Source: Natrinema sp. SYSU A 869 (GTDB lineage Archaea > Halobacteriota > Halobacteria > Halobacteriales > Natrialbaceae). From it: a stretch of 64,000 bases of DNA. Both the position numbers and the translations under genes were made by a program. Positions within the stretch are counted from its first letter, which is position 1, and each line of letters starts with the position of its first letter. This document shows positions 601 through 10,297 of the stretch, in pieces. The DNA is taken from NCBI RefSeq assembly GCF_019879105.1, contig NZ_CP082249.1, forward strand, positions 3,534,001 to 3,598,000, written 5' to 3'. The notes under the pieces were generated by a model. The model saw only the letters and a program-made list of their open reading frames with translations. It was not told where the DNA came from and searched no databases.

Positions 601-1335
601 TCAGGAACGAACGGTTCCGTCTTCACCCTCGAGTCCGGTATCGGTAATCCGGAACTGCACCGACTCGCCCGCGGCTTTCGAGCGGTGCTTTTCTAGCGTC
701 GCGCGTCGCTTCCCGCCGCGGAAGCGTTCGAGACGGACGACCGTTCCGGTCCAGTGCTCCAAGGTGTTGCCGCCCAGTCCGCGGGTGCGGTCCGAGTCGG
801 GGTCGGCGAAGACCTGATTCGTCAGGACGACCGCGAGATCGTGTTTTCGCGCGAGCGAGAGCAGATGTGTCACCTGCCGGGTGACGCTTCGAAGCGCTTC
901 CCCCTCGTCGCCGTCGGCCGTGCGCTCGAGACGGTAGAAGCCGGTCGCGCTGTCTAAGATGATCAGTTCCGCGCGCTCGGCGAACTCCTCGGCGTCGCGG
1001 ACGGCTTCGGCCTGTTCTTCGAAGTCCAGTACGTCCTCGATGACGATTCGCGAGGCAACGGCTTCGACGTCATCGGTCTCCTCGCCGTCTCGAGACGTCC
1101 CCTCGCCGGTTTTGGCCTCGAGCAACTGCTGGAAGCGGTCGACCGAGACACCCTCGGTGTCGATATAGACCGCGGTCCCGCCGTCGACGGCCGTTTCGAC
1201 GGCCGCCGACAGCGCGAGATTCGTCTTCCCAGCGGCCGGCGGGCCGTACAACTGCGTGACGGTCCCGCGTTCGAACCCCCCACCGAGCAACTCGTCGACC
1301 GGGCCACAACCGGTTGAAATCGGCTCGTCGGTCAC
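601..1335 (-). CDS. radB: DNA repair and recombination protein RadB
   Basis: RadB is an archaeal RecA/RadA paralogue that assists homologous recombination. It has a RecA core without the N-terminal HhH domain of RadA. Visible motifs are the opening STGCGPVDELLGGG, Walker A GPPAAGKT, the YIDTEG strand, and Walker B LIILDS followed by the L2-region TNQVF. The frame is open upstream to an ATG at 1467, but family similarity starts at the GTG at 1335 (VTDEPISTG). A T-rich box around 1360-1366 on the minus strand sits about 28 bases upstream of that GTG, fitting a leaderless transcript. This start gives 244 residues, a normal RadB length. It faces the convergent CBS-HPF gene and is divergent from the RNase H-fold gene at 1737. 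Confidence 0.9.
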   Translation of the reverse strand: MTDEPISTGCGPVDELLGGGFERGTVTQLYGPPAAGKTNLALSAAVETAVDGGTAVYIDTEGVSVDRFQQLLEAKTGEGTSRDGEETDDVEAVASRIVIEDVLDFEEQAEAVRDAEEFAERAELIILDSATGFYRLERTADGDEGEALRSVTRQVTHLLSLARKHDLAVVLTNQVFADPDSDRTRGLGGNTLEHWTGTVVRLERFRGGKRRATLEKHRSKAAGESVQFRITDTGLEGEDGTVRS

Positions 1336-1736
1336 GGTTTCAGTTGACAGGGAACGCGCAAAAAGGCCCCGGAACGGGCCGGAGATCGGTATCGGAATCG
1401 GACGTACACTACTGACCCGGTTTGTGAGACAGACGTGTGGGCTGCTATCGTGGTGGCTAGGTACCATACTCCCTAGCCGAGTTCTTACTCACGGACGTTT
1501 CGCGTCCGTCTGTTCACGGGCGTTCGGGACGCCGGAGACGTCGTCTCACGGGTGGAAACACCCGTTCGACCGCTCTCGGAAGCGATGGTTCCGCGGTCCA
1601 GCGTGCGCTACCGCGGTCGGTTTCTCGGTCCGATGCGAACCGCACACACTCCGCGACAGCTAGCCTCACAGTTCGGCCCGCGGTCAATACCGGCAGTTCG
1701 CGTACGTTTATTCGTCGCGGGAGCGAAGCCCAGTGC
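1336..1736. other. Intergenic region between divergent radB and the RNase H-fold gene, with a GAAA-loop hairpin
   Basis: About 400 bases with no credible gene; the upstream extension of the radB frame lacks family similarity. It holds the radB promoter box near 1363 and a plus-strand box (TTTATT, about 1706-1711) some 26-31 bases before the GTG at 1737. At 1548-1565 there is a perfect 7-base inverted repeat, ACGGGTG and CACCCGT, closed by GAAA. This would fold as a stable GNRA tetraloop hairpin if transcribed. Confidence 0.5.
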
Positions 1737-2622: not shown

Positions 2623-4185
2623 TTACGCTTTGGACCAGACGTTCGTCGCGGCGACGGACGTGAACTGGATGTTCTCGTTCTCCTGAATACTTACCTGCGC
2701 AGCGTTCGCACTACCGTTGCCCTCAGCGACTGCCACGGAAGAGTGTTCGTTGAGGTTCTCCTGAGTAACGAACTGTTGCTGTTCAATGGCAACGGTCGCT
2801 CCCTGATCGATGTCGTTTTTGTGGTGCGCGCTGGTGTCATAGTCGTACGAGATACCGGGGTTTGCTTCGATGTCATCGCCACCGATGGTCACGGTCGAGG
2901 ACTCGGTTCGGGTGGCACTATCGGTTGCGTACCCTGGACTGGCGTAGACGTTGAGCGCTTCGGCGTATCCGACCTGAGCGTTGAAGTTCTTCTGATCAGC
3001 GATCTGGAAGGCCGTCGCTTCGCTGCCGTTGAGTGCGATAGCCATCGCAGTGTTGTTCAGATTGACGTTCAGTTGCTCGACGGACTGTGCCTGCGCTACC
3101 GTCGCAGTCGCTGTTTGTTCACCGACTTCGTCGCCTTTCTTCGGGTTTTTGTCGTCGCTCTTCTTCGGGCTGTGGGTGCTAACAGATTCGCTCTCACCGA
3201 TATTCGCGACGTTCATCCCGGACATTGACGAGAGGACGTTCATCGCTTCTGCGGACCCCAGCTGTTGGTTAAAGTTGGACTGATCCGTCAGTTGGATCGC
3301 CGTCGCGGAACTGTTCTCGCCGACGGCGATAGCGACGGCAGCTACCCCTTGATTAACGTTATTCTGAGAGACGTTCTGTCCCTGCGCAACGAAGGCAGCT
3401 GCGGACTGCGTCTCGTCGTCCTTCTTGCCTTTCTTGTGATCGTCGTACTCTCCGAACTTTCCATCTCCGAGGTAGACGTTGGACGCGTTGGCAGCGCCTT
3501 GCTGCATGTTCTGGTTCGCCTGTGTGGTCTGCTGGAAGGCGGTCGCCTGACTCTCGTTCATTGCGAGCGCGAAGGCGGTGCTCTCCTCATTGTAGTTGAG
3601 CTGGGCGACGTCTTGGGCCTGAGCCACGCCCGCGGTTGCGGTCTGGCTGGCCGTCGTTTCACCCTTTTCGTCAGCAATTCCCCAGCCACTGAACTGCTGG
3701 CCGCCGCCGCTCCCGTCCGCCATGACGAGATGGACGTCGCCGACGTCCTCGAAGTCAGTTGTTGTGGACCCGAACGCCCGGTCTTCGGCAGATGCCTCGC
3801 CTTGCTGGACGTTCATGTTCTGCTGATCCACGTCCTGAACGGCCGTCGCCGTCCCGTTGTCGATGGCGATGGAGACGGCGGCGCCTTCTTCGTGGATATT
3901 TACCTGGTTAACATTCTGGTACGAGACGACCTCGGCGACCGCCTCCTGCTCTTCGGCGGCTGTCGGATTGCCCGCAACGTTCTCCTTGATGAACTCGTCA
4001 AGACTCTGTTCGCCAAGATCGGCACCGAAGACCAGATAGAGATCTTCGCCGTCTTCGAGGGTGTATACTGGTTCGTCCTGTGCGTGTTGGTCGCCGCCGG
4101 CAGCCGCCGGGACAGCCATCCCGACCATCGAGATGGTGACCATAACGGCGACGAAAACCGTCGTAATGCGTGATCGTTCAGACAT
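2623..4185 (-). CDS. Exported protein with five curlin-like Gln/Asn repeats
   Basis: A 520-residue protein. Residues 1-29 form a Sec-type signal peptide (hydrophobic core TTVFVAVMVTISMVGMAV, cleavage near AAAGG). After a non-repeat N-domain (30-80) come five ~50-residue repeats at about 84-132, 185-236, 262-316, 359-412 and 463-515. Each has two halves. The first is Q-x-V-x-Q-x-N-x-N followed by an A-x-A-I-A strand; the second is A-T-A-x-Q-x3-Q-x-N-x-N-x-Q. This Gln/Asn spacing resembles CsgA/CsgB curlin repeats, which stack into amyloid strand-turn-strand rungs. Linkers between repeats are charged and include Lys-rich stretches (HKKGKKDDE, KKSDDKNPKKGDE), unusual in a haloarchaeal protein. 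There is no C-terminal sorting tail. I infer a secreted fibre or matrix protein; no CsgG-like exporter is seen. Divergent from the Gly/Asp-rich gene at 4861. Confidence 0.75.
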   Translation of the reverse strand: MSERSRITTVFVAVMVTISMVGMAVPAAAGGDQHAQDEPVYTLEDGEDLYLVFGADLGEQSLDEFIKENVAGNPTAAEEQEAVAEVVSYQNVNQVNIHEEGAAVSIAIDNGTATAVQDVDQQNMNVQQGEASAEDRAFGSTTTDFEDVGDVHLVMADGSGGGQQFSGWGIADEKGETTASQTATAGVAQAQDVAQLNYNEESTAFALAMNESQATAFQQTTQANQNMQQGAANASNVYLGDGKFGEYDDHKKGKKDDETQSAAAFVAQGQNVSQNNVNQGVAAVAIAVGENSSATAIQLTDQSNFNQQLGSAEAMNVLSSMSGMNVANIGESESVSTHSPKKSDDKNPKKGDEVGEQTATATVAQAQSVEQLNVNLNNTAMAIALNGSEATAFQIADQKNFNAQVGYAEALNVYASPGYATDSATRTESSTVTIGGDDIEANPGISYDYDTSAHHKNDIDQGATVAIEQQQFVTQENLNEHSSVAVAEGNGSANAAQVSIQENENIQFTSVAATNVWSKA

Positions 4186-4860
4186 TTTGTTGATCGTGGT
4201 TCGTGTCGAATGACCTGTGAGGGTCTTTCATTGCTGAATCTCTGCGACGCGAACCAATCTCCCTCGGATATAGTCTTTGTTATCAATGCTTTATAGGACA
4301 GAAGGTGAGCGCTACCCTTGGAGAAGGGATGTACCTACCAGTAATGAGCAAGCCCTGAGAAGAAGTACCGTATTTCCTGGGCATTTCGTCCCGTATCAGG
4401 CGCCAAAACCATTAAAGTACCAGAACAGAGAAATCATCGTCGCTATAATGACTGCATATGAGTCTCTCTTAGGAGGAATATAGTCTTGCTCCTTACATTG
4501 TATGTCGGTGACTGTTTCATGGATACTATTTCGGTGACGGCGCCGGGTCGATATATTGATCAATTTGGTCGTATAAGTTGCCTTATACTAATTATGTTGT
4601 CAATTGAACCCTGAAACCGACTAACTGTTGCTCCAAAGACAGCTGCTACGTGCGTTTGCGGGCCTCTATTTCAATTCTAATCCCGCATAGCTCGTGAAAC
4701 CATAATTCGGGTTAATACGTGATACCAGCAACAGGGTCATCTGGGCAACGCGCCGTGGCATCCGCTCGGATCGGTCGGACGAGCTGCGAAGGGTTGTGTA
4801 GCCGGCCGGTGCGATGAGACAGTTCCGGTGGTCCGCGCGTGTACCCAACGGTAGACAACT
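4186..4860. other. AT-richer intergenic region between divergent exported-protein genes
   Basis: A 675-base gap, noticeably more AT-rich than its surroundings, with several TATA-like stretches (around 4265-4300 toward the curlin-like gene; TTATACTAATTATG near 4583-4596). It presumably carries both divergent promoters. Short open frames here (for example 4277-4483) have no recognisable features. Confidence 0.4.
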
Positions 4861-5358
4861 ATGAACCGAACATTCACGGCAACGCTTACGGTTGCATTGA
4901 CTCTCGGCATGCTCCTGACGATGGGAGCGGGAGCCGCGGCAGCAACGAGTTCCTCCTCTCACACCACACAGACTAACACCATCTCCAACTCACCGACTAT
5001 CGCTGATTCCTCCGGTGGAGACGTCGTCACAGTCGGCGGTGCCGGCGGCGATGGGGGGGACGGCGGTATCGGCGGTGACGCCGATGCTGACGCCGGTGAC
5101 GGCGGTGATGCCGATGCTGACGCCGGTGACGGCGGTGATGGAAACAGTTTCCTCATCGGTGTTGGTGGTGACGGTGGTGACGTTGAAGATGATGTTGAAG
5201 GTGGTGACGGCGGTGACGTTGAAGACGACGTCGAAGGCGGCGATGCCAATGGCGGTGACGGCGGTGACGGCGGTAGCGCTATCAACTTTGGAGATGGCGG
5301 TGACGGCGGACATGCCTTTAGTCTGAGTGACTACAGTCAGAACAACTACAACTGGTAG
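4861..5358 (+). CDS. Exported Gly/Asp-rich low-complexity protein
   Basis: A 165-residue protein with a clear signal peptide (residues 1-28, TVALTLGMLLTMGAGAAAA). A Ser/Thr-rich stretch follows (29-53). Residues 57-147 are almost entirely Gly and Asp with Ala, Val and Glu, built from short repeats (GDGGDADADA twice, VEDDVEGGD twice, many GGDGGD). The last residues, SLSDYSQNNYNW, break the pattern; their SQNNYN resembles the QxNxN motif of the neighbouring curlin-like protein. The strongly acidic Gly-Asp body would be disordered or would bind cations. It sits between the curlin-like gene (divergent) and another repeat protein gene downstream on the same strand. I recognise no family; export and composition are seen, any role is inference. 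Confidence 0.65.
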   Translation: MNRTFTATLTVALTLGMLLTMGAGAAAATSSSSHTTQTNTISNSPTIADSSGGDVVTVGGAGGDGGDGGIGGDADADAGDGGDADADAGDGGDGNSFLIGVGGDGGDVEDDVEGGDGGDVEDDVEGGDANGGDGGDGGSAINFGDGGDGGHAFSLSDYSQNNYNW

Positions 5359-5747
5359 AAGCTTTCCGTAGCTTCCCTACACCAGGCAGCGAATTGAACC
5401 CTACTTTTTTGTTGTATAGCGGACCCACCGACCAGCCGAAAGCGGGTCTCTGAGAGCAAGATCTGCTGATCGTCCACCTATAATATAGTAAATACTGAAC
5501 GTCAGTGTGCACCGTATCGCATGACAACTGTGCAATCCGTGTGTAAACAATTTCAATTATTACTATCAGTATGAATGATACTTATCGAAATGGACGGTCT
5601 GGGAATCGTCCGTTTTACACGGAGCACGGCGCGGAATCCGCGTTACGACCGCGCTACCGTTGAAACCGTGTCGCATCTTCATAACCGTACGAATGCTCTG
5701 ACAGAACCGAGGAAGCTAGACGGGAAGACCACCTCTCAAAACTACAA
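5359..5747. other. Intergenic region between two exported repeat-protein genes
   Basis: 389 bases without a credible gene. AT-rich patches occur around 5478-5495 (CTATAATATAGTAAATAC) and 5550-5580. The first could be a promoter but lies too far from the start at 5748 to assign with confidence. Confidence 0.3.
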
Positions 5748-6242
5748 ATGATTCGAACGATCGCGGTCCTACTGGTAGTACTGTTCATGTTGCTATTTGC
5801 ATTTGGTAGTATTGCCAATGACGCTATTGGTACTGACAGTGAGAATGGTATCATTGCTCAGAGCAACGGTGAAGATGGTGAAACCATCTCAACCGCTGGT
5901 GAAGACGGCGAAGATGGGAGAGACGGTGACGATGGAACCGTCGTTCAGAGCAACGGCGAGGATGGTGAGGACGCTTCGGCCATCGGCGAGGATGGTGAGG
6001 ACGCTTCGGCCATCGGCGAGGATGGTGAGGACGCTTCGGCCATCGGCGAGGATGGTGAGGACGCTTCGGCCATCGGCGAGGATGGTGAGGACGCTTCGGC
6101 CATCGGCGAGGATGGTGAGGACGCTTCGGCCATCGGCGAGGATGGTGAGGATGGTGTGGATGGCGAACATAGAGAGAACGGAGAGGATGGCGAAGATGGA
6201 GAAAATGGAGAAGATGGAACCGTCATTCGGTGTAACCGGTAA
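5748..6242 (+). CDS. Exported or membrane-anchored EDGEDASAIG repeat protein
   Basis: A 164-residue protein. Residues 2-25 (IRTIAVLLVVLFMLLFAFGSIA) form a signal peptide or N-terminal membrane anchor. The rest is made of Gly-Glu-Asp units: two QSNGEDGE segments, then six perfect copies of the ten-residue unit EDGEDASAIG (residues 71-130), then a decayed EDGENGEDG tail ending at VIRCNR. The Gly-Glu-Asp triplets resemble collagen-like runs, but the ASAI interruption every ten residues rules out a continuous triple helix. A further out-of-frame unit after the stop (6246-6275) suggests the coding region was once longer. It is the third repeat-rich exported protein in 3.7 kb. No family recognised. 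Confidence 0.6.
   Translation: MIRTIAVLLVVLFMLLFAFGSIANDAIGTDSENGIIAQSNGEDGETISTAGEDGEDGRDGDDGTVVQSNGEDGEDASAIGEDGEDASAIGEDGEDASAIGEDGEDASAIGEDGEDASAIGEDGEDASAIGEDGEDGVDGEHRENGEDGEDGENGEDGTVIRCNR
5958..6137 (+). repeat. Six perfect 30-bp tandem repeats inside a coding region
   Basis: Six identical 30-base units starting GAGGATGGTGAGGACGCTTC run head to tail, each encoding EDGEDASAIG in frame. Perfect identity at third positions points to recent expansion or ongoing homogenisation, so copy number may vary between strains. Confidence 0.97.
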
Positions 6243-6543
6243 AGGTGGTGAGGACGCCTCAATATTGGCGAAGATAGAACGAACATATATAGTATTACAT
6301 CTGTGTTAAAATAATCACTATGTTAGTTCCACTGCCGTTACTTCAGGTATTGTTACCAATTAAAACCACGGGAACAGTCCTCCAGTGAGGGTCCCAGGAT
6401 CCCAATCAGACGATATAGCGGTTTTGTCTCGCCGTTACGAGCATCATACTATCCGTATTTGCCAGCACGATTGGCACTACAGGCGCTAAGTAACTACTGT
6501 GTTTACTTCCGAATCATTTTCGGCCACCACAAGATACGTAACG
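6243..6543. other. Intergenic region with a leftover repeat unit
   Basis: Just after the stop of the EDGEDASAIG protein, 6246-6275 reads GGTGAGGACGCCTCAATATT then GGCGAAGATAG. This is a decayed copy of the 30-base unit, out of frame and with a one-base slip inside. The rest of the roughly 300 bases shows no gene, and the larC stop follows at 6544. Confidence 0.5.
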
Positions 6544-7857
6544 CTATTGCTTCGGTTCTAAGTCGACTGCACGCTTCGCACGCCGTATGACATCTCGAGT
6601 CGCCAGTCCCGTCTCTCGAGCCACCGCCTTTGCATCGTCGTACTCCGCACTCACGTCGTAGACCTCACCATCCGCATCACTCGCGATTTTCACGGTGACT
6701 TCGTACTCCTCGCCGTCGATTGCGAGCGTTACGGTCTCAAATTCACGATTCGCGATCCACCGATGCGTAACACCGGCGTCGCGGACTCCGAGCGTCCCAG
6801 TTTCTTCGGCCAGCGCTCGAGCGACCCGCTCCCGATCCGCGGGCTTGCAGATGACCTTCACGAGGTGGCCGGGTCGGGACTTCTTCATTGTCGCAGGCAG
6901 GACCGACACGTCTCGAGCGCCCGCGTCCGTGAGGGTCTCTTGGAGTCCGCCCAGCACTTCGGGCGTCGCGTCGTCGAGGTTCGTCTCCAGCACCGCGATA
7001 TCATCTTTGACGAGTTTGCTTCCGTCCTCGCCGGCCCCGACCAACACCCGAAGCACGTTCGGGTGGGGATCGAGGTCGTAGCCACCCGCGCCGTAGCCCG
7101 AGGCCTCGAGGTCGAGTGCAGGCAGCGAGTCGACGCCGTCGGCGACGTGGCCCAGAATCGCCGCGCCGGTCGGGGTGAGTAGTTCCGCGTCGACCGGCCC
7201 GCCGCGCAGCGACCAGTTAGCACCTTCGGCAATCTCGACAACCGCTGGCGTCGGCACGGGATACTCGCCGTGGCTCATCGTCACCGTCCCGCCGCCGGTC
7301 GCCAGCGGCGTGGTGATGACGCGATCGGGCTCGAGGTCGTGAAGCAGGGCCGTGGCACCGACCACGTCCGCGATCGCATCGTCGGCCCCGACCTCGTGGA
7401 AGTGAATTTCTTCGAGGGTCTCTCCGTGAACGCTCGCCTCCGCCTCGCCGAGCAACTCGAAGATCGCGAGCGCGTCGCGTTCGACTGCCGGCTCGAGGTC
7501 CATGTCGGCGACGATCTCGCGGACCTCGAGATAGCTCCGATGGGGGCCGTGGCCCTCGGCGCGAACGCCGTCGTGGGTGTGGCTGGTGTGAGTATGGTCG
7601 TCGTGAGTGTGGTCGTGTTCGGCGTCGGACTCCTCGTGCGCGTGTGAACTATCGTCGTCGCCATCCGCGTCCGTCAGGAACACGTCGACGGCCGTCGCGG
7701 CGATACCGTTCTTGTCAGCCTCGTCGATCCGATACTCGACCTCGAGAGACTCGGTCACGGGCTCGAGGGCGTCGGGGTCGCCACCGGCGCCGAGGAGCGC
7801 GGCGAGGAGCATGTCGCCGCTGGCTCCCATCCGGCCGTCGAAAGCGAGGACTCGCAT
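6544..7857 (-). CDS. larC: Nickel insertion protein LarC
   Basis: LarC inserts nickel into the pyridinium-dithiocarboxylate cofactor of lactate racemase-type enzymes, using CTP. The start MRVLAFDGRMGASGDM at 7857 matches the conserved LarC opening; the frame continues upstream to 7968 but those 37 residues are not family-like. The protein is 437 residues. A His-rich insert (HDHTHDDHTHTSHTHDG, about residues 82-98) is a probable metal store, as in other LarC proteins. Other conserved stretches are FHEVGADDAIADVVG, PVPTPAVVEI, LTPTGAAIL and ETNLDDATPE. No larA or larB is nearby, so the client enzyme is not identified. Divergent from cdc48 at 8069. Confidence 0.9.
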   Translation of the reverse strand: MRVLAFDGRMGASGDMLLAALLGAGGDPDALEPVTESLEVEYRIDEADKNGIAATAVDVFLTDADGDDDSSHAHEESDAEHDHTHDDHTHTSHTHDGVRAEGHGPHRSYLEVREIVADMDLEPAVERDALAIFELLGEAEASVHGETLEEIHFHEVGADDAIADVVGATALLHDLEPDRVITTPLATGGGTVTMSHGEYPVPTPAVVEIAEGANWSLRGGPVDAELLTPTGAAILGHVADGVDSLPALDLEASGYGAGGYDLDPHPNVLRVLVGAGEDGSKLVKDDIAVLETNLDDATPEVLGGLQETLTDAGARDVSVLPATMKKSRPGHLVKVICKPADRERVARALAEETGTLGVRDAGVTHRWIANREFETVTLAIDGEEYEVTVKIASDADGEVYDVSAEYDDAKAVARETGLATRDVIRRAKRAVDLEPKQ

Positions 7858-8068
7858 ACTTCCATTCTCGGAGCGGAAGACGCAAAAGCCACCTCTCCTA
7901 CTCCGTACAGGCACGGTGTCGATAGGGCCAAAACCAACCGAGGCCGGTACACCTTTGTAGCGTCCCACCTTATCTGCGTGTGGTAGCCACTAGCACAGGA
8001 AATGACTCACACTAGCAAAAACCTATCCGCGCACGAATCGGAGTCATTGACACCGCTGTCCCTAAAAT

Positions 8069-10297
8069 ATGAACGAAGTTCAACTTGAGGTTGCGAAGGC
8101 GTACCCGAACGACTCGGGTCGTGGTATCGCCCGACTCGACCCGGACACGCTGTTGCATCTGAAGCTGAGTCCGGGCGACATCATCGAGATCGAGGGTGCA
8201 GATACGACTGCCGCGAAGGTCTGGCGCGCGGACCGGCAGGACTGGAACACGGATACCGTCCGTATCGACGGCTTCACCCGCCAGAACGCCGACGTCGGTA
8301 TCGGCGAACGGGTGACGATCCGGAAGGCAGAAGCGACGAAAGCCGACAAGCTGGTGCTTGCACCGCCCGAAGAGGCGTCGGTCCAGTTCGGCTCCGACGC
8401 CGCCGGCATGGTGAAACGGCAGATCCTCAAACGGCCGGTCGTCGGTCGCGACATCGTCCCCGTCATGAGCTCGACGAATCATCCGTTCATGCGGTCGCCT
8501 GGCCAGGCGATCCCACTCATAGCCGTCGAGACCGAACCGGAGGGCGTTGTCCTCATCACCGAAGATACCGACGTTGAACTCCGCGAAGAGCCCATTTCGG
8601 GCTTCGAGAAGACCGGAGGCGGGATCACATACGAGGACATCGGCGGCCTGCAAAACGAGATCCAGCGGGTCCGGGAGATGGTCGAACTCCCGATGAAGCA
8701 TCCCCAGATATTCAAGAAGCTCGGCATCGAGCCGCCACAGGGCGTGCTCCTACACGGCCCGCCGGGCACCGGGAAGACCTTACTCGCCAAGGCCGTCGCC
8801 AACGAGACCTCCGCCAGTTTCTTCTCTATCGCCGGGCCGGAGATCATCTCGAAGTACTACGGCGAGTCCGAACAGCAACTCAGGGAAATCTTCGAGGACG
8901 CCACCGAGGAGTCGCCGTCGATCATCTTCATCGACGAACTCGACTCCATCGCCCCGAAACGGGAAGATGTCACCGGCGAGGTCGAACGCCGGGTCGTTGC
9001 ACAGCTGTTGACGATGATGGACGGCCTCGAGTCGCGAGGCCAGGTCATCGTCATCGCCGCGACCAACCGCGTCGATTCGGTCGATCCCGCGCTGCGCCGT
9101 CCGGGCCGATTCGACCGCGAGATCGAGATCGGCGTCCCCGATGAAACGGGCCGCGAGGAGATCCTGCAGATCCACACCCGCGGGATGCCGCTTTCCGACG
9201 ATGTCAGCCTCGGTCACCTCGCCGACGAGACCCACGGCTTCGTCGGTGCCGACATCGAGAGCCTGACCAAGGAGGCGGCGATGAAGGCGCTCCGGCGCTA
9301 CCTCCCCGAGATCGATCTCGACGAGGAGGACATCCCGCCGAGCCTGATCGACCGAATGATCGTCAAGCGAACGGACTTCCGCGGCGCGCTCAACGAGGTC
9401 GAACCGAGTGCAATGCGAGAGGTCCTCGTCGAACTCCCGAAGATCTCTTGGGACGACGTCGGCGGCCTTCAGGATGCCAAAGACCAGGTCAAGGAGTCCG
9501 TCGAGTGGCCGCTCTCGACCCCCGAACGGTTCGACCGGCTGGGCGTCGATCCGCCGGCTGGCGTCTTGCTGTACGGCCCGCCGGGCACCGGGAAGACGCT
9601 GATGGCGAAAGCCGTTGCCAACGAGACCAACGCGAACTTCATCTCGGTGCGCGGCCCACAGCTCCTCTCGAAGTGGGTCGGCGAGTCGGAGAAAGCCATC
9701 CGGCAGACCTTCCGCAAGGCCCGACAGGTCTCGCCGACGGTCATCTTCTTCGACGAGCTCGACGCGCTCGCGCCGGGCCGGGGCGGTGAAACTGGTTCGA
9801 ACGTCTCCGAGCGGGTCGTCAACCAGCTCTTGACCGAGCTCGACGGGTTAGAGGAGATGGGCAACGTGATGGTCATCGGCGCGACCAACCGGCCGGACAT
9901 GATCGACCCCGCACTGCTGCGCTCGGGGCGGTTCGACCGGCTGGTCATGATCGGCCAGCCCGACGTCGACGGTCGGGAACGCATCCTCGAGATCCACACC
10001 GAGGACACGCCACTGGCTGCGGACGTCACGCTTCGCGAGATCGCCGAGATCACCGACGGCTACGTCGGCAGCGACCTCGAGTCGATCGCTCGCGAGGCGG
10101 CCATCGAGGCACTGCGCGAGGACGAGGAGGCCGATATCGTCGAGATGCGTCACTTCCGACAGGCTATGGAGAACGTCCGGCCGACGATCACCGACGATAT
10201 CCTCGACTACTACGAACAGGTCGAAGAGGAGTTCCAGGGCGGCACGAGCGGCCCCGATCCGACGGGTCGTCGCGGCAGCCGCATCGGCTTCCAGTAG
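8069..10297 (+). CDS. cdc48: CDC48/VAT-type AAA+ ATPase (first paralogue)
   Basis: A 742-residue unfoldase with the full CDC48/p97 layout: N-terminal substrate-binding domain (1-180), D1 AAA module, and D2 AAA module. D1 has Walker A GPPGTGKT at 230-237 and Walker B IIFIDE at 285-290; D2 has Walker A near 503-510 and VIFFDE after it. Arg-finger and sensor segments ([29 protein letters not shown]) are intact in both. In archaea this hexamer unfolds proteins and can feed the proteasome. There is no C-terminal HbYX motif: the tail ends RRGSRIGFQ. Transcribed away from larC; a perfect 18-base palindrome just after the stop may terminate it. Confidence 0.95.

Follow-up and report, generated by a model that had tools for sequence, protein, structure and literature searches.

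A 64,000-nucleotide stretch of the Natrinema sp. SYSU A 869 genome (contig NZ_CP082249.1, positions 3,534,001 to 3,598,000; hereafter the window) carries a gene for an exported Gln/Asn-repeat protein, here called A, and a gene for a small acidic exported protein, B, the local member of a fast-evolving family that we term companions. Comparisons across haloarchaeal genomes indicate that A and its companion almost certainly constitute a genuine co-inherited exported system. The system appears undescribed: no account of the A family was found in the open literature searched, where absence is not proof. A, B and the nearby open reading frame (ORF) C returned nothing meaningful from Pfam, NCBIfam or PDB sequences, only weak low-complexity matches (Collagen and SclB for C, ATP19 for B). 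The initial annotation of the window had presented A, B and C as three exported low-complexity proteins with a common surface or matrix role, A being curlin-like. All three ORFs were recovered where it had placed them and are real, yet the system consists of two genes, A and the companion B. A lies on the minus strand, B and C lie divergent from it on the plus strand, and A does not share an operon with them.

Co-inheritance and co-variation of A and companion provide the best evidence that both products work together. For 38 selected genomes, the companion signal was detected in 11 of the 12 that carry A, including cases in which the two genes are not adjacent (G057, G048, G089). The 26 chosen genomes without A, 20 of them from the same family, yielded a single weak companion-signal match (2.9e-4), located in an unrelated frame of 439 residues; none of the 20 A-less family genomes tested has a companion. 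In Natrinema, A occurs at one locus as three allele classes (the window with genomes G010 and G006; the majority; and a class with PGF-CTERM tails), each with its own kind of companion, and the identity of the neighboring nickel-insertion protein LarC does not follow these classes. Distances between A proteins correlate with distances between companions (r 0.50), including when LarC is taken into account (partial r 0.49; Mantel p 0.0005). The link between A and an acidic companion is stronger than could be seen from the window alone, and C should be dropped from the system.

The companion family and its upstream region

A tblastn search with B detected relatives in the two closest genomes only. 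Read naively, this makes B a lineage-specific gene, an interpretation that was overturned once the interval separating A from LarC had been read in 44 loci. Almost everywhere, between one and four divergent genes occupy this interval. Their products open with a stereotyped signal peptide (MKR-LT--LTVALIGSL-FMGFAGTAAA), after which come 70-270 residues that evolve fast. A profile of this signal located a companion divergent from A in 60 of 67 loci, with the first companion at a median of +680 bp from the A start, and gave no match in the rest of these loci. Companions lying behind a conserved box (described below) at the same loci had served as its training set, so the informative parts are the zero matches elsewhere and the matches at box-less loci. 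B has the defining features of a companion: it is divergent from A, lies behind a box (+511 from the A start, 53.4 bits) and matches the signal profile (E 2e-11) with 37.9 bits; its aligned identity to companions is 70% in G010 and 56% in G006. The hydrophobic N-terminus of C fails the same model with 1.8 bits and the signal peptides of A and B differ from each other, so that the shared export signals proposed initially were not confirmed.

The mature companions range from Q/N-rich proteins through Q/N cores flanked by (GGDGGDGG) (L055, L093, L102, L112) to bodies made almost only of Gly and Asp, as in B and its sister genes. Mature B, described as Gly/Asp-rich from the outset, contains 30% Gly and 20% Asp and has a net charge of -31. 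When a hidden Markov model (HMM) of the A repeat was run against the mature companions, the best score was 50.7 bits (E 5e-15), compared with a maximum of 7.1 bits among about 740 shuffled companions, which indicates that many companions, although not all, carry one repeat where A has five. The companion of the window lineage has, judging from its sequence, lost this Q/N repeat core. Companions are often tandemly duplicated. The larger ones (236-294 aa; L033, L036, L039, L044-L046, L048) contain a possibly folded domain (e.g., ...VEFYQNDNLFVRFRWTGQMFVP...) between Q/N arms, as if it were a cargo domain. At L079 in genome G057, three companions remain beside LarC and CDC48 and A is located elsewhere; one of the three has an 11-residue tandem repeat, KKDDDRKHADD.

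Companions are preceded by a 63-bp box that is mostly found at +480 to +550 from the A start and always on the companion strand, with extra copies before tandem companions. Its position-specific scoring matrix (PSSM) had no match on the other strand and none in shuffles of 1.09 Mb, and 58 of the 61 boxes lead into a companion ORF at 129-206 nt (median 167). The pattern is single-copy in its own genome, even when three mismatches are allowed. Across 29 Natrinema genomes, matches with 0-1 mismatch occur at the A locus (reversed-pattern control: 0), and the few two-mismatch matches elsewhere look unrelated. The box is probably a promoter together with the start of a leader.

Just upstream of the companion start codon is a sequence (such as UGUGAUGCGUGCCU) complementary to the 3' half of the box (GGGCAACGCGYCACA), and the two could pair as the arms of a hairpin in a presumably transcribed leader. 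RNAalifold on a MAFFT alignment of the leaders gave no useful consensus because the leader loops differ in length; the leaders were then folded singly, and arms were swapped between genes. In this swap test, which keeps no phylogeny, cognate arms paired much better than swapped ones (sum -1702.6 vs. -1513.7, standard deviation 23.7; best of 5000 swaps -1614). Folding z-scores across 58 companion leaders averaged -2.2, with 31 below -2, and in the simple group one pair of the hairpin displays a clean U-A to C-G double change. The companion leader had no match in Rfam.

Gene A, its locus and gene C

The five Gln/Asn repeats ascribed to A in the initial annotation were confirmed: they span 54-58 residues each, are separated by linkers of 22-45 residues, and contain the motif A.A.Q...Q.N.N.[QE] five times (none in 2000 composition shuffles) and Q.Q...Q.N.N four times (shuffle mean 0.0045). 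Identity between A and 35 homologues is 55-63% in the repeats and 24-45% in the linkers, and the Q/N positions of the repeats are invariant or nearly so across 36 homologues. Mature A is strongly acidic (net charge -55). AlphaFold2 predicts long beta strands in each repeat, with a predicted local distance difference test (pLDDT) score of about 80-96 in the repeat cores and low confidence elsewhere (full-length mean 60.5; predicted template modeling score 0.52). Modeling repeats 2-4 by themselves raised confidence no further, and the resulting model likewise had no significant fold match. The element directly upstream of A is strongly conserved in the 45 upstream regions aligned.

The surface location proposed for these proteins is supported by sequence features of some A homologues. 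PGF-CTERM tails occur on A in several genera; PF18204 recognizes them in 4 of 24 homologues, and more homologues display one. Proteins with such tails are processed by archaeosortase and become attached to the cell surface. The window A has no such tail (PGF motif, hydrophobic stretch, basic end), nor do most Natrinema A proteins. In the PGF-CTERM allele class (L071, L072, L073), a second PGF-CTERM surface protein (MTTKPTTLEKGRAVVLAGLMVLSVIAMSVAFAGGAAA...) is encoded among the companions on the minus strand, about +2700 to +3900 from A.

Few members of the A family lie outside the haloarchaeal family Natrialbaceae. Each of the 29 Natrinema genomes encodes A, as do 54 of the 61 family genomes searched. 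In a wider sample of the class, 93 of 391 genomes matched A: 79 of these fall within the family, full-length relatives occur in five more, and in the other nine the match is limited to an N-terminal stretch of long surface proteins. The host genome (5.67 Mb, three contigs) has mostly Natrinema species as genus-mates in the collection. The neighbors identified at the A locus encode RadB, LarC, CDC48 and a HerA-like ATPase (Table 1), and the chromosomal place is conserved, many loci having RadB and a gene of the type at 1737 on one side and LarC and CDC48 on the other. Genome G010 has two A genes, a window-like one beside LarC/CDC48 and a majority-class one beside RadB that contains an in-frame TGA (L031 and L081); this looks like a split locus or a gained allele cassette. 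Natronorubrum bangense (L091, L092) has apparently identical A genes on chromosome and plasmid, with companions at matching distances from A.

Table 1 Features of the A/companion locus and its surroundings (window coordinates)
Feature	Position	Strand	Basis or remark
RadB/Rad51-type recombinase	601-1467		neighbor of A
Unnamed gene, 255 aa	1737-2504		neighbor of A
Gene A, 520 aa, exported; five Gln/Asn repeats of ~55 residues, linkers of low conservation	2623-4185	-	ORF, repeat motif, homologues, AlphaFold2 model
A repeat 5, residues 460-516	2638-2808	-	
A repeat 4, residues 357-414	2944-3117	-	
A repeat 3, residues 260-315	3241-3408	-	
A repeat 2, residues 181-237	3475-3645	-	
A repeat 1, residues 84-137	3775-3936	-	
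Sec-type signal peptide of A, residues 1-30, ends PAAAG	4096-4185	-	sequence; aligned in 24 homologues
Conserved upstream element of A (GATAACAAAG ... GGTTCGCG ... AAAGAC)	4186-4284	-	alignment of 45 upstream regions
63-bp companion box (GAAACCGTT..CCGGGTT.AAAT ... CGACTGGGCAACGCGCCACAG)	4696-4758	+	PSSM, information content 69 bits; genome and genus-wide searches
Hairpin predicted for the 5' leader of B, arms at 4742-4767 (5') and about 4830-4848 (3'); belongs to a family of leader hairpins with covarying arms	4742-4848	+	leader folding, arm swaps
Gene B, companion, 165 aa, companion signal peptide and Gly/Asp-rich (GGD)n body, ends YSQNNYNW	4861-5358	+	signal HMM, identity to companions
Dispersed ~83-bp near-palindrome between B and C, outside the system	5484-5566		MITE-like (miniature inverted-repeat transposable element) or REP-like (repetitive extragenic palindrome)
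Gene C, acidic orphan ORF, 164 aa, containing six exact tandem units of 30 bp	5748-6242	+	no homologue in 28 other Natrinema genomes, no box, no companion signal
LarC, nickel-insertion protein	6544-7968		neighbor
CDC48-type AAA ATPase	8069-10297		neighbor; assigned from sequence

Gene C matches its initial description as Glu/Asp/Gly-rich with ten-residue repeats (21% Gly, 18% Asp, 18% Glu; six exact 10-aa units starting at 5955, 5985, ... 6105, from which it is largely built), and its export is plausible. The 28 other Natrinema genomes contain no homologue of C, and the only box match in the window belongs to B; we treat C as a recent lineage-specific orphan outside the A/companion system. The common surface or matrix role suggested for three proteins is thereby reduced to a conserved, co-inherited pair of A and an acidic or low-complexity exported companion. 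Homologues of A and of B-type companions do occur together, so the refuting condition set in the initial annotation, that homologues never co-occur, fails for this pair and applies to C. A DNA search with the C region revealed only the dispersed palindrome (TATAGTAGCCACTGAAAGTCA...TTTCAGTGGCTACTATA), which ends about 180 bp upstream of C, recurs at more than a dozen other sites in its own genome (including G000:C3:2276775, C3:3140023 and C2:563608) and is found in most Natrinema genomes.

Proposed fibre system, with coat and curli as alternatives

We propose with moderate confidence that A and B together make up an exported fibre or matrix system specific to Natrialbaceae, each being one half of it. 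Both proteins would be secreted by Sec. A, anchored through PGF-CTERM in several genera, could serve as a conserved platform or nucleator in the role of CsgB or FapB, and the small, fast-evolving, often tandemly duplicated companion could be the coat or polymerizing subunit in the role of CsgA or FapC. The repeats may stack as Q/N-laddered beta-arches into a surface fibre or matrix for adhesion or biofilm formation. In the window species, a highly acidic (GGD)n body would have replaced the repeat core of the companion, and B is therefore more likely to decorate or hydrate A-based fibres than to polymerize.

Several observations weigh against this proposal. Fibre, amyloid and biofilm roles are inferred for A and its companion, and support from the predicted fold is weak: mean pLDDT of the A models is 57-61, and Foldseek returned no significant match. 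Speaking for the proposal, if weakly, all three PDB matches of the full A model were CsgA or FapC (one CsgA, two FapC; E 0.56-9.2), and for repeats 2-4 the matches were FapC twice, SufBCD and CsgA (E 2.7-9.4), with a TM-score to the models of at most 0.16. B itself has no detectable A-type repeat, scoring 4.0 bits and thus below the best shuffle of 7.1. Its leader can form the arms, with a stability no better than that of shuffles (z 0.2), and part of the pairing excess in the arm-swap test can be relatedness, given that phylogeny was not kept. Finally, at least 20 genomes of the family are without A.

One competing explanation, which we consider somewhat unlikely, is that A and its companion are non-fibrous surface or S-layer accessory proteins, i.e., a soluble or lipid-anchored acidic coat that binds ions or water and whose rapid variation is due to recognition by viruses or predators. 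The PGF-CTERM anchors of some A homologues and the strong negative charge of both mature proteins agree with such a coat, as do the existence of (GGD)n companions and the presence at one locus in one genus of three A allele classes that have their own companion types and are not tracked by LarC. The near-invariant Q/N ladder across the homologues, the modeled long beta strands and the repeat common to A and companion point instead to an ordered, stackable structure. A chance juxtaposition of three unrelated low-complexity secreted genes, with Gln/Asn and acidic bias arising from halophile composition and repeat slippage, fits C (no homologue, exact 30-bp tandem units, adjoining dispersed palindrome) and is very unlikely as a general account, being excluded for A and B by synteny, the single-copy box, leader covariation, co-occurrence and co-variation.

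That A is a true member of the curli family and forms an archaeal CsgA/CsgB pair with its companion is highly improbable, despite Q/N-rich tandem repeats, two homologous subunits, weak Foldseek matches to CsgA and genuine Curlin_rpt proteins in the same archaeal family, since A fails every curlin sequence test applied. The curlin repeat family PF07012 (Curlin_rpt) matched neither A nor 23 homologues and was not among the listed matches of 37 companions. The minimal curli repeat is X6-Q-X-G-X2-N-X10 (PMC3521004); its motif Q.G..N occurs once in A (shuffle mean 0.35) and in none of the tabulated companions. The curlin kernel N-$-P-$-P-$-Q, in which P stands for hydrophobic, S or T and which is found as two motifs per ~23-residue repeat (PMC10192328), has no strict occurrence in A and six in a relaxed form (shuffle p 0.055). 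Curlin as a family name for A, as used in the initial annotation, is consequently abandoned: that the system works like curli or Fap is a reasonable hypothesis, that A is a curlin is not. Proteins matching PF07012 were detected in two of 242 genomes of the class, the window genome not among them. One is a genuine curlin-repeat protein in genome G055 (L140:3552-4289 (-); 245 aa, signal peptide, DADVDQRNDAGVFQDGKNN repeats, PF07012 E 2e-45), with a relative in G236 (L141).

Returning to the fibre or matrix proposal, a more far-reaching form of it is an independently evolved archaeal functional amyloid, which we advance tentatively. It would comprise a conserved five-repeat nucleator, A, that is archaeosortase-anchored in some genera, and a hypervariable, often multi-copy companion, the two being swapped jointly as an allele cassette, with companion output controlled through a promoter box of its own and a structured mRNA leader of a new kind. 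If this holds, the small set of two-subunit functional amyloids known so far would gain a lineage that is archaeal and non-curli. With a regulatory box and an RNA leader that are both conserved, A and companion lend themselves readily to expression and knock-out tests.

Comparison with known systems

Like A and its companion, curli CsgA and CsgB are two exported subunits with homologous, imperfect Q/N repeats, one conserved and one highly variable (PMC3521004, PMC10192328); in curli it is the CsgB nucleator whose structure is conserved and CsgA that varies (PMC3521004). The same source mentions one unnamed archaeal protein with regularly spaced curli-like repeats, which could not be identified and may relate to L140 or to the A family. 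Unlike in curli, the repeats of A measure ~55 rather than ~23 residues and carry neither PF07012 nor a published curlin signature, the genes are divergent instead of forming a single operon, the companion has an RNA leader, and the archaeal envelope has a single membrane. CsgE, CsgF and CsgG are not expected in an envelope that lacks an outer membrane. Fap proteins, in which imperfect repeats with conserved Asn and Gln are joined by linkers, resemble A in the small number of these repeats and the hydrophilic nature of the linkers (FapB/FapC; PMC12822426); A differs in that its repeats number five as against three; sequence searches against solved structures detected no homology, and no fold match was significant.

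Within the archaea, several A homologues share the sorting signal of the PGF-CTERM surface proteins of haloarchaea (PF18204, archaeosortase substrates), which the window A lacks. The Methanospirillum hungatei sheath protein (PMC10593813, PMC6242892) is, as proposed for A, archaeal, extracellular and amyloid-like, a likeness by description only, and it forms a sheath as opposed to the two-gene repeat-protein pair found here. The haloarchaeal biofilm matrix of Haloferax volcanii stains with Congo red and thioflavin T, as putative amyloid whose determinant is not established (PMC4180959). There, stained material stands without a named protein; the A/companion locus names a candidate gene pair that is widespread in Natrialbaceae.

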